From an uncultured Peptococcaceae bacterium (GTDB lineage: Bacteria; Bacillota; Dehalobacteriia; UBA4068): a stretch of DNA of 38,992 nucleotides. A program made the translations under genes and the position numbers. The notes beneath the pieces are model-generated. The model saw only the letters and a list, made by a program, of their open reading frames with translations, did not search any database and was not told where the DNA came from. This document shows, piece after piece, positions 1-38,915 of the stretch; the first letter of the stretch is position 1; every line of letters begins with the position of its first letter. The DNA is taken from positions 1 to 38,992 of the forward strand of contig CASEQE010000054.1 in NCBI GenBank assembly GCA_949289995.1. Direction: 5' to 3'.

Positions 1-591
1 GGAGAAGCCCGCGCTATGACCTGGAATCAGATTCATTTTAAAACGCAAACGCTGCAGGTTTGTCAATCCGTTAAAAAGACCAAGGATTCAACCAACAAAG
101 GCATCCAACTCGGATTGCCTAAGACGGAAGCAGGGGTACGAACGATACCCATGCCGCAAGCGTTAATCGATATCTTGTCTCCCATAGCCAAAAAAGGGTT
201 TGATTATGTGGTAGAAAGCCGCCCCGGACAACCGATTAGCGAACAACGATATAAAAACGCCTGGCAGAGTTTCTTCCGCAACATGCAAATCACCGCTGGC
301 GCCACTCTTTACCGGAATCGTATCATCGTAGCCGCGCAAGATATCGGCTCGGATTTAACCCCTTATTGCCTGCGCCATACCTACGCTACGCGGCTGGCGG
401 AAAAACGGGTAGATATTAAAGTCGCCATGAAATTCATGGGGCATACTTCGGCAAATATGCTTATGCAAGTTTATCAGCATGTATCGGAAAAATTAGAGGA
501 AGAAGCCCGGATGATTGTTCGTGATCTGTACGATTCTCCCGCGGAAAAACAACACCCGGCATGCCTACCAGATATTAAAAGCATACCCTAG
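1..591 (+). CDS. Tyrosine-family site-specific integrase, 3' part only
   Basis: This is the C-terminal catalytic domain of a phage or ICE-type tyrosine recombinase. The frame is already open at base 1 and reads GEARAMTW, which matches the end of the usual R-x-GE Arg-I box, so the N-terminal domains and the first catalytic Arg lie outside the window. Visible parts are the beta-hairpin PKTEAGVRTIPM, the box-II region PYCLRHTYATRL, then FMGHTS and the nucleophile Tyr in VYQHV. The first His of the common H-x-L-R-H-T motif is Tyr here, a substitution some phage integrases tolerate. The gene runs toward the 3' end of tRNA-Lys 137 bp away, the classical position for an integrase of an element inserted in that tRNA. 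It could serve a prophage or a conjugative element; the cargo is not visible. Confidence 0.9.
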   Translation, partial: GEARAMTWNQIHFKTQTLQVCQSVKKTKDSTNKGIQLGLPKTEAGVRTIPMPQALIDILSPIAKKGFDYVVESRPGQPISEQRYKNAWQSFFRNMQITAGATLYRNRIIVAAQDIGSDLTPYCLRHTYATRLAEKRVDIKVAMKFMGHTSANMLMQVYQHVSEKLEEEARMIVRDLYDSPAEKQHPACLPDIKSIP

Positions 592-601
592 AGCAAAAAA
601 A

Positions 602-626
602 ATTTGACAACGTTTTGACAACGTTT
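602..626. repeat. Tandem TTGACAACGT repeat beside attachment site
   Basis: Two direct copies of TTTGACAACGTTT-like sequence overlap with a period of 11 bp, directly after the integrase stop codon. Short direct repeats between an integrase gene and the att core are often arm-type binding sites for the integrase or its excisionase. That role is inferred from position; only the repeat itself is seen. Confidence 0.5.
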
Positions 627-679
627 AATCCCTAAAAATACCGCCAAAAACCGTCAATTTGAAAGATTCTTTTTTAAAT

Positions 680-727
680 AACCCCTACCAAACGCCACAT
701 AATCGCGACGTTTAGCAGGGGTTTTTC
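680..727 (+). terminator. Hairpin with T-run after the integrase gene
   Basis: The arms AACCCCT and AGGGGTT enclose a second inner pairing AAACG/CGTTT, and the right arm runs into TTTTT. It would end integrase transcription before it reads antisense into tRNA-Lys. Confidence 0.55.
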
Positions 728-728
728 A

Positions 729-804
729 TGGTGGGCCATCAGGGGCTCGAACCCGGGACACCCTGATTAAGAGTCAGGTGCTCTACCAACTGAGCTAATG
801 GCCC
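729..804 (-). tRNA. tRNA-Lys (anticodon CTT)
   Basis: A complete 76-nt cloverleaf can be folded by eye. The acceptor GGGCCAT pairs with ATGGCCC, the anticodon stem CCTGA/TCAGG holds the loop CTCTTAA with anticodon CTT, the T-arm carries GGTTCGAGCC, and the 3' CCA is encoded. It reads AAG codons. Its 3' end faces the integrase at 1-591, so it is the probable integration target. The tRNA is intact, so the inserted element must restore the 3' end sequence. Confidence 0.97.
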
Positions 805-814
805 GAACAGATTA

Positions 815-843
815 ATTATAAAAGAAAAAAAAACAAAAGTCAA
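815..843 (-). promoter_or_regulatory. Promoter of tRNA-Lys
   Basis: On the minus strand TTGACT and TATAAT are separated by 17 bp, and the -10 box ends about 10 nt before the first base of the tRNA. This is a near-consensus vegetative promoter. No hairpin terminator separates it from the upstream dnaB gene. Confidence 0.75.
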
Positions 844-884: not shown

Positions 885-2270
885 TTAGGAGGCTTCGTTG
901 CCTTGCCATTTCTGCACCAAATTCTGAAAAGATGTATAATCTTTTAAAAACAACATATCCACATCGCCGATCGGACCATTTCTATGTTTCGCAATCATAA
1001 CAGTTACCACTTCTCCAGCGTCTCCCATATCGATAGGCTCATTTTCTGTTTCGTTTTGGGTATTGCGTTTGTTCTTATGCAAAAGAATAACCACGTCGGC
1101 GTCTTGTTCCAAGGCGCCGCTTTCACGTAAATGACTGAGGGAAGGCGGTTCATTACTACGGTCAGCCAAGCGCGATAACTGCGACAAGGCCAACACAGGT
1201 AAATCTAACTCTTTGGCCATAGCTTTAAGACCGCGGGAAATTTCTGCCACTTCCAATTGGCGATTTTCTAGGCGATTGGCAGATCCGCCCTGCATCAACT
1301 GAATATAATCTACCACTACCAAATCCAAGCGTTTTTGTTCCGTTTTGAGTTTGCGCAATTTGCTACGCATTTCACCGACGGTAACGCTCATAGAATCGTC
1401 GATAAAGATTTGTGCATCCGCTATTTCCGTCATTGCTTTGCTTAACCTCTGCAAATCCTCCATAGAAGCCAAACCTTTGCGAACCAAACCCTGATTTACT
1501 TTTGCTTGTGTACATAACATTCTCTGCGCCAATTGTTCTTTTGGCATTTCCAAAGAAAAAACAGCAACAGTTAAACCATGTTTCACCGCAGCATTTTGCG
1601 CAATATTAATCGCCATCGACGTTTTACCCATCGCCGGCCGGGCAGCCAAAATAATCAAATCGCTTTTTTGCAGCCCGGAAAGATATTTATCCAAATCGCG
1701 AAAAGTCGGTACGCCGGTTACGCCGTCCGCCGCTTTTGTTTGTACCATCATTTCAAAAACGGAGGGCAATAAATCATGTAAAGATTGAAAATAACCGTGG
1801 CGACGACCTTGCGAAATATCGAAAATAGATTTTTCGGCAAGCTCCAATAACTCCGCCGAACTATGGGCGCCGGCATATCCTTCTTGGCTGATTAAAGAAG
1901 CCGTTTGAATCAAAGCTCGTGACAAAGCTTTCTCAGCAATAATCTTGGCATAGTGAACGGCAGCGCCAGCCGAAGGAACGGCGTCAGTTAAGGAAGATAC
2001 GTAAGCAATGCCGCCCACTTTATCCAGGTTTCCCGCTTTTTGCAAAACATCCACCAAAGTGACTAAATCACTGGGGATGCCTTGCTCGTTTAAATCAGAT
2101 AGACAGCGGAAAATAAGCCGATGGCTTTCGCTATAAAAATCCTCGGCTTTTATATACTCCTGAACCGCGCTAATCGCTTCGTTATGCAACAAACATGCCC
2201 CCAACAGCGCTCTTTCAGCTTCTAAACTCTGCGGCGGCAGTCGATGCGTATCTTCCCTTACCTCCACCAT
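885..2270 (-). CDS. dnaB: Replicative DNA helicase DnaB (Bacillus DnaC)
   Basis: This is the hexameric ATP-driven helicase that unwinds DNA at the replication fork and loads primase. At 461 aa it has normal length. The N-terminal primase-binding domain begins with LPPQSLEAERALLGA (residues 11-25). The RecA-like ATPase follows, with Walker A ARPAMGKT at 210-217 and Walker B DYIQLM at 321-326. The start ATG has an AAAGGA site just upstream, and the gene follows rplI by 22 bp. The order yybS-rplI-dnaB is conserved in Bacillota. No inteins or frame breaks are seen. Confidence 0.97.
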   Translation of the reverse strand: MVEVREDTHRLPPQSLEAERALLGACLLHNEAISAVQEYIKAEDFYSESHRLIFRCLSDLNEQGIPSDLVTLVDVLQKAGNLDKVGGIAYVSSLTDAVPSAGAAVHYAKIIAEKALSRALIQTASLISQEGYAGAHSSAELLELAEKSIFDISQGRRHGYFQSLHDLLPSVFEMMVQTKAADGVTGVPTFRDLDKYLSGLQKSDLIILAARPAMGKTSMAINIAQNAAVKHGLTVAVFSLEMPKEQLAQRMLCTQAKVNQGLVRKGLASMEDLQRLSKAMTEIADAQIFIDDSMSVTVGEMRSKLRKLKTEQKRLDLVVVDYIQLMQGGSANRLENRQLEVAEISRGLKAMAKELDLPVLALSQLSRLADRSNEPPSLSHLRESGALEQDADVVILLHKNKRNTQNETENEPIDMGDAGEVVTVMIAKHRNGPIGDVDMLFLKDYTSFQNLVQKWQGNEAS

Positions 2271-37528: not shown

Positions 37529-38755
37529 ATGGCAATTATCGTACAAAAATTTGGCGGCAGTTCCGTCGCCAACGCAGAAAGAATTCAAAGAGTAGCGCGA
37601 AGAGTAGCGGAAGCTGCATCGGAAGGCAATCAAGTGGCGGTAGTGGTTTCCGCAATGGGCGATACCACCGACGATTTAATCGCTTTAGCTAACCAACTCA
37701 ATCGCAAACCCCCGGTTCGTGAAATGGATATGCTGCTTTCGACCGGTGAACAACAATCCATCGCTTTATTGGCTATGGCATTGCACGCATTGGGACATAA
37801 AGCAATTTCTCTAACCGGTGCGCAAGCTGGTTATCATACCGACGGCATTTATTCTCGCGCAAAAATTTTGAATATAGATAGTAAACGAGTGCTTAATGAA
37901 TTGAATAAAGGTAATATTGTTGTCGTTGCCGGATTCCAAGGAATAGACGAACAAGGCGAAATTACTACCTTAGGGCGAGGCGGCTCCGATACCAGCGCCG
38001 TAGCGTTAGCCATCGCTTTAAACGCCGACTTGTGCGAAATTTATACCGACGTAGACGGCGTATATACCGCCGATCCCCGTATTATCAAAACCGCCTGGAA
38101 AATTCCAGAAATATCCTATGATGAAATGCTGGAAATGGCTGCCATGGGCGCCTTGGTTTTGCAGCCACGTAGCGTGGAGTTGGCCAAACAATACAATATA
38201 CCTTTGCACGTACGTTCAAGTTTTAACCATTCTCAAGGCACGATTGTTAAGGAGGTTGCCCATATGCAAAAAGATTTGGAGCAGGAATTGATCGTCTGCG
38301 GCGTCGCCCATGATTTGCACGTTTTGAAAACGACTATTTTTGGCGTACCTGATCAGCCCGGCGTTTCGGCGCTTATCTTCGGTCTACTGGCAGCAGAAGG
38401 AATCAATGTGGATATGATTATCCAAAGTGGCACCAGAGAAGATAAACAGGATATCTCTTTTACCTGCGGCAGAGACGATAAAGACAACGTAGAAAGACTT
38501 GCCCAGCAAATGGTTAAAGAATTAAATGCGCAAAGCTATTTGCTAGAAGATAATATTGCCAAGATTTCTATCGTCGGCGCAGGTATGATGACCCATCCGG
38601 GCGTTGCGGCTACCATGTTTAAAACCCTGGCCGATATTGATTGCAATATCTTGATGATTGCCACCTCTGAAATTAAAATTTCTTGCATTATCGACGAAAC
38701 CAAAATCAATGAAGCCGCCATCGCGCTGCACACAGCCTTCCATCTAGATAGGTAA
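37529..38755 (+). CDS. lysC: Aspartate kinase (alpha subunit frame)
   Basis: It phosphorylates aspartate, the first step to lysine, threonine and methionine. The 408-aa monofunctional enzyme has the kinase signature MAIIVQKFGGSSVA, TLGRGGSDTSAVALA and YTDVDGVYTADPRI, then two ACT domains from about residue 262 (GVPDQPGVSALIFGLL). AGGAGG-like GGGAGG stands 5 nt before the ATG. The length equals that of Bacillus aspartokinase II, and an internal ribosome site at codon 246 allows a separate beta subunit. It completes the hom-thrB-lysC run. Confidence 0.97.
   Translation: MAIIVQKFGGSSVANAERIQRVARRVAEAASEGNQVAVVVSAMGDTTDDLIALANQLNRKPPVREMDMLLSTGEQQSIALLAMALHALGHKAISLTGAQAGYHTDGIYSRAKILNIDSKRVLNELNKGNIVVVAGFQGIDEQGEITTLGRGGSDTSAVALAIALNADLCEIYTDVDGVYTADPRIIKTAWKIPEISYDEMLEMAAMGALVLQPRSVELAKQYNIPLHVRSSFNHSQGTIVKEVAHMQKDLEQELIVCGVAHDLHVLKTTIFGVPDQPGVSALIFGLLAAEGINVDMIIQSGTREDKQDISFTCGRDDKDNVERLAQQMVKELNAQSYLLEDNIAKISIVGAGMMTHPGVAATMFKTLADIDCNILMIATSEIKISCIIDETKINEAAIALHTAFHLDR
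38264..38755 (+). CDS. lysC: Aspartate kinase beta subunit from an internal in-frame start
   Basis: Inside lysC the ATG of codon 246 is preceded by AAGGAGG with an 8-nt spacer, better than many gene starts here. Translation from it gives a 163-aa protein made only of the regulatory ACT domains. Bacillus subtilis lysC makes exactly this kind of beta subunit from an internal start, so the assignment follows known biology plus the visible ribosome site. It would pair with the alpha chain and bind the feedback inhibitor. Confidence 0.75.
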   Translation: MQKDLEQELIVCGVAHDLHVLKTTIFGVPDQPGVSALIFGLLAAEGINVDMIIQSGTREDKQDISFTCGRDDKDNVERLAQQMVKELNAQSYLLEDNIAKISIVGAGMMTHPGVAATMFKTLADIDCNILMIATSEIKISCIIDETKINEAAIALHTAFHLDR

Positions 38756-38837: not shown

Positions 38838-38915
38838 CGGGGCGTAGCTCAGTTTGGCTAGAGCGCTACCTTGGGGTGGTAGAGGTCGCACGTTCAAGTC
38901 GTGTCGCTCCGACCA
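38838..38915 (+). tRNA. tRNA-Pro (anticodon GGG)
   Basis: A 78-nt cloverleaf: the acceptor CGGGGCG pairs with CGCTCCG (one G-T pair), the anticodon stem CTACC/GGTAG holds the loop TTGGGGT with anticodon GGG, the T-loop is TTCAAGT and the CCA is encoded. It reads CCC and CCT codons. Confidence 0.96.

Follow-up and report, generated by a model that had tools for sequence, protein, structure and literature searches.

The left end of a 38,992-nucleotide stretch of DNA from an uncultured Peptococcaceae bacterium, referred to below as the window, is very probably the attL of a phage-like element integrated in tRNA-Lys(CTT); this junction would span bases 1 to about 770, with strand exchange in the anticodon loop at 767-773. 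The genome assembly comprises 84 contigs (1.83 Mb, 91.9% complete), of which the window is C54; its base 1 coincides with the contig end. An integrase frame (1-591) is followed in order by two 11-bp repeats, a hairpin, and tRNA-Lys(CTT), the 3' end of which points toward the integrase. A previous sequence-only reading had placed the boundary of an integrated element at this tRNA gene, and on the visible side the proposal is supported by three observations detailed below, i.e., a related contig that reads as attP (L024; the strongest of the newly added evidence), a same-genus site without an integrase (genome G001), and a prophage in another genome of the family (G015).

The frame at 1-591 (plus strand) has neither a start nor an upstream stop and is open to the contig end, so that 196 residues from the C terminus of a tyrosine integrase are present. 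It matched the Pfam model Phage_integrase (PF00589) with an E value of 7e-18, in agreement with the earlier recognition of the end of an integrase gene. A scan of genome contigs returned a sole relative, L024 (CALVMB010000044.1), a contig 5,280 bp in length that belongs to a metagenome bin and in which the full-length integrase of 387 amino acids is encoded at 288-1451. This enzyme is 94% identical to the window integrase over residues 1-184, the last 111 bases being the least similar part of the gene (84 of 111 identical). The nearest solved structure was the Int protein of PDB 6emy, which we take to be Tn1549 Int, with residues 122-357 aligned at an E value of 3e-10; like the window integrase it is a tyrosine recombinase, but it is distant in sequence and presumably comes from a conjugative transposon that is not tRNA-targeted. 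Searches of IMG/VR returned no relatives of the integrase or of the repeat DNA, the integrase matches among GenBank phages were all below 60% identity, and none of the contigs of the window's genome encodes the N-terminal half of the window integrase.

The 11-bp direct repeat that had been noticed next to the integrase gene is present, with TTTGACAACGT found twice in tandem on the plus strand at 603-613 and 614-624. Within the spacer (592-728), exact repeats reach at most 13 nt, a length matched by 10 of 2,000 dinucleotide shuffles, i.e., more than chance would usually give. The repeats and the spacer identical to that of L024 fit arm-type integrase sites, and a role of the repeats in arm binding is probable. 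By alignment with L024, the 84 bp at 603-686 (no strand assigned) would constitute the attP arm of the element itself.

A hairpin with 18-nt arms at 677-694 and 709-726 separates the repeats from the tRNA. On the minus strand, the direction of the tRNA, it folds with -33.7 kcal/mol (z of -8.9), compared to -15.1 kcal/mol (z of -2.3) on the plus strand in the direction of the integrase. Because the minus-strand fold is far more stable, we consider this hairpin (677-726, minus strand) to be chiefly the tRNA's own terminator, and the terminator previously described between repeats and tRNA stands. When the terminator helix was aligned, 97% of cells were paired; the covariation score was reached by 41 of 500 shuffles, hence not clearly beyond them, and the single pair changed on both sides was reached by 413 of 500. 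Since shuffles reach these scores too, no covariation is claimed for the helix. A promoter/terminator consensus scan gave a site count not above that of shuffles and missed the 677-726 hairpin.

Beyond the hairpin, both ARAGORN and Rfam (RF00005, 64.9 bits) called an intact minus-strand tRNA-Lys(CTT) (729-804), its 3' end facing the integrase as had been reported. The host flank includes a gene at 885-2270 (minus strand) that adjoins the same tRNA in the same-genus genome G001 and that we take, by its sequence, to be dnaB, encoding the replicative DNA helicase. Near the other end of the window, ARAGORN also called a tRNA-Pro(GGG) at 38838-38915, which falls below the gathering score of the Rfam tRNA model.

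In L024, the order is integrase, repeats, spacer, hairpin, and the 3' part of tRNA-Lys(TTT), then directly a long gene. The repeats are identical to those of the window and the hairpin is very similar. Compared to L024, the window is identical at 74 of 74 positions over 603-676 and remains so until the first mismatch at 687, giving 84 identical bases (603-686); the terminators agree at 43 of 50 positions and the tRNA segment 735-773 at 33 of 39, while 774-800 agrees at 12 of 27 and is unrelated. The match between the tRNA block of L024 and the tRNA-Lys(TTT) of G001 covers exactly 45 nt, its limits being the first anticodon-loop base and CCA, and 0 nt match beyond the other side of the block; ARAGORN called no tRNA within these 45 nt. 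An attP has the form of unbroken element sequence that holds both an integrase gene and the 3' fragment of a tRNA (PMC4383910), and L024 accordingly reads as an uninterrupted attP. The window's own genome has a contig, C63, with 100% identity to L024 across 498 bp and the same tRNA-Lys(TTT) fragment at its end; the two assemblies may be non-independent, shared reads being possible. L024 has been assigned to a MAG labeled "uncultured Clostridia bacterium," and that bin gave no dnaB match to the host flank of the window; L024 may have been misbinned.

From its similarity by descent to the 45-nt tRNA block in L024, the 3' part of the tRNA at 729-773 (45 bp, minus strand) is predicted to have been supplied by the element, at whose far end it should be present again. 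As the L024 block begins at the first loop base, the anticodon loop CTCTTAA (767-773, minus strand) is the predicted 7-bp strand-exchange region. In the proposed mechanism, the integrase would exchange strands within this 7-base loop, although the exact crossover in this copy is a prediction, and the element would bring its own copy of the remaining tRNA (729-773) together with a tRNA terminator (677-726), so that the tRNA gene would be whole again. The tRNA-Lys(CTT) would remain functional after integration, and the original tRNA 3' end of the host would be displaced to the presumed far end of the element.

The window and L024 start to differ within the terminator (from 687) rather than in the tRNA, and the anticodon loop is therefore the likely rather than the proven switch point. 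An alternative holds that the junction is real but that the exchange, or a later homologous exchange, occurred at or just left of the terminator, in which case the terminator and tRNA-Lys(CTT) would be the host's and element DNA would extend to approximately 686. This agrees with the 84 bases of identity to L024 and the first differences lying inside the hairpin, as well as with a tRNA 3' half of CTT type throughout in the window versus the TTT type in the sister attP. Nevertheless, such a crossover would not need the tRNA block of L024 to start exactly at the anticodon loop, and the window terminator is nearer to that of L024 (score of 81) than to the CTT terminator of G001 (score of 40), and we regard this alternative as quite unlikely. 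A chimeric assembly, in which a phage contig was joined to the tRNA-Lys region via common terminator sequence, is highly improbable: the assembly is fragmented (84 contigs), with breaks in related phage sequence at these very repeats, but the two terminators differ at 7 of 50 positions, the same architecture is present in related prophages, and in our judgment the sequence in common is not long enough to be merged by an assembler.

The earlier reading had proposed a comparison with relatives free of the insert. In the one other same-genus genome compared, G001, contig C10 carries dnaB, tRNA-Lys(CTT), and a hairpin terminator in the order of the window, followed by other genes, and no integrase match was found on that contig. 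The host DNA that follows the site in G001 has its ortholog at the right end of C7, a contig of the window's genome, and the element is therefore expected to lie between base 1 and C7. In G001, an Abi_2 abortive-infection-like gene (Pfam E value of 9e-51) is located directly after the tRNA-Lys(TTT) terminator, at 581-1444 of L013 (contig C25), which suggests that this tRNA-Lys(TTT) site is a foreign-gene hotspot.

A second copy of the tRNA 3' end had been predicted at the far side of the element. The tRNA core has two matches in the assembled genome of the window, i.e., this site and the tRNA-Lys(TTT) fragment on C63, with no second CTT 3' end among the contigs; this does not refute integration because base 1 is the contig end. 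Since the end of C7 carries no tRNA fragment and the core occurs only twice in the genome, attR is missing from the assembly. Two contigs were rejected as its location, C7 for its end without a tRNA fragment and C63 for a fragment of TTT type. In place of the repeat originally named for this search, 729-770, the stretch to be sought is 729-773 (45 bp) or longer. A search for an intact tRNA-Lys(TTT) locus in the window's own genome found none, and a candidate match on contig C80 was rejected as tRNA-Gln(CTG).

The element in tRNA-Lys(CTT) would still be a whole phage. It could instead be a decayed remnant, with an integrase end and an att half-site as all that is left of the element beside the tRNA, a reading in keeping with the failure to find attR in the assembled contigs and with the integrase copy on contig C65, which is 5'-truncated and lies behind an HTH/DUF2442 pair. 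The visible frame, however, is open to its stop with 94% amino acid identity to the full-length sister, and because the contig stops at base 1 the remainder may lie beyond it; we judge decay to be unlikely, if deserving of consideration. The locus on C65 of the window's genome (L018 in G000; 1-327 and 324-826) holds this second integrase copy, which is 92% identical. The HTH and DUF2442 genes directly ahead of it resemble a toxin-antitoxin type pair, and the break joins sequence lying upstream of the intact integrase in L024.

The integrated element is probably a phage. When the genes of C63 were compared with PHROG, only weak matches were obtained, and one gene gave a 54-amino-acid match to the gene after the portal and head genes in MT835607.1; on such weak matches, the neighbor genes of the sister element look phage-like. 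No relative of the 1,432-amino-acid protein of C63 was found in IMG/VR, neither this protein nor the 174-amino-acid protein matched GenBank phages, and the predicted structure of the latter was unusable (mean pLDDT of 39).

Integrase matches in 20 genomes of the bacterial family numbered 45, comprising 4 in the window's own genome, 7 strong matches elsewhere (E value below 1e-9), and 34 weak matches. Of the 7 strong matches, 4 have a tRNA gene within about 205 nt (tRNA-Gly twice, tRNA-Met, and tRNA-Thr), and the remaining 3, including the closest one (39% identity, G016), have no tRNA in the locus. Among the weak matches, a tRNA was present anywhere in the locus for 1 of the 21 examined, which are mostly Xer-like, with 13 further ones having no locus; strong and weak matches differed in this regard with a Fisher P value of 0.008. 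In G015, a related integrase (24% identity) at the edge of a tailed prophage adjoins tRNA-Gly(CCC) (75462-75535); the last 49 nt of this tRNA, together with 13 more bases (62 bp), recur at 37861, 37.6 kb away. Between the two copies are genes for terminase, portal, major head, major tail, and tape-measure proteins, as called from 10 proteins scanned of 31 listed frames of at least 150 amino acids. No second tRNA copy was found in three other contigs checked, each 8 to 26 kb long. The layout of G015 shows that integrases of this kind are able, in this bacterial family, to make the predicted structure.

Insertion into a tRNA gene with repair of that gene is a frequent and well-understood route by which such elements enter bacterial chromosomes. 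As defined by Islander (PMC4383910), islands and prophages in tRNA genes have a tyrosine integrase and an attP with a tRNA-gene fragment, and the target is restored at one end. Likewise, the window has a tyrosine integrase gene beside the tRNA, albeit cut by the contig end, and a restored intact tRNA at one end, and L024 has the tRNA-gene fragment in attP, here of tRNA-Lys(TTT); unlike that class, the displaced tRNA fragment of the far end is not among the assembled contigs, base 1 being a contig end. The junction is an ordinary member of this known class of tRNA-integrated elements.

A close parallel is mycobacteriophage Boilgate (PMC10865867), which integrates at attB-4, a tRNA-Lys-TTT, in the manner proposed here, i.e., with exchange in the loop, the 3' part of the tRNA supplied, and the tRNA functional. 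It belongs to another bacterial group, however, and the window involves the CTT isoacceptor with a near-identical sister carrying the TTT half; in addition, the window and L024, compared to Boilgate as described there, have a hairpin terminator inside the shared block. The same source describes tRNA-dependent lysogeny, in which the tRNA is not rebuilt at integration and the replacement tRNA is phage encoded; this was rejected for the window, where the tRNA is intact at the junction. With mycobacteriophage Ms6 (PMC1762012), one and the same integrase can be retargeted to a sister tRNA gene when a 7-bp core in the tRNA loop is slightly altered. That case concerns the T-loop, tRNA-Ala genes, and an engineered change, whereas two natural sister modules are found here. 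Literature searches on tRNA terminators carried by phages and on isoacceptor switching led to these precedents.

The unusual point is that near-identical integrase/arm modules appear with the halves of two lysine isoacceptors (CTT and TTT), each accompanied by a tRNA terminator. In G001, the terminators of the two genes (L012 and L013) align with a score of 60, compared to scores of 10 to 17 in 7 other family genomes, with loci cut by contig ends or with a single isoacceptor left out. We tentatively consider it possible that one phage lineage has a portable cassette of the 3'-terminal 45 nt of a lysine tRNA and the terminator, that it moves between CTT and TTT by cassette swap, and that the terminator has spread to both host loci in this genus; this reading is drawn from one genus.

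Altogether, one end of a mobile element has been fixed in a bacterium known here from a fragmented genome alone, its sister attP has been identified in a public contig, and the target repeat has been corrected to 729-773. If the isoacceptor switch is true, the modules of the window and L024 would represent a natural experiment on change of integrase target, suggesting that exchange of the tRNA half would suffice while the integrase stays nearly unchanged.
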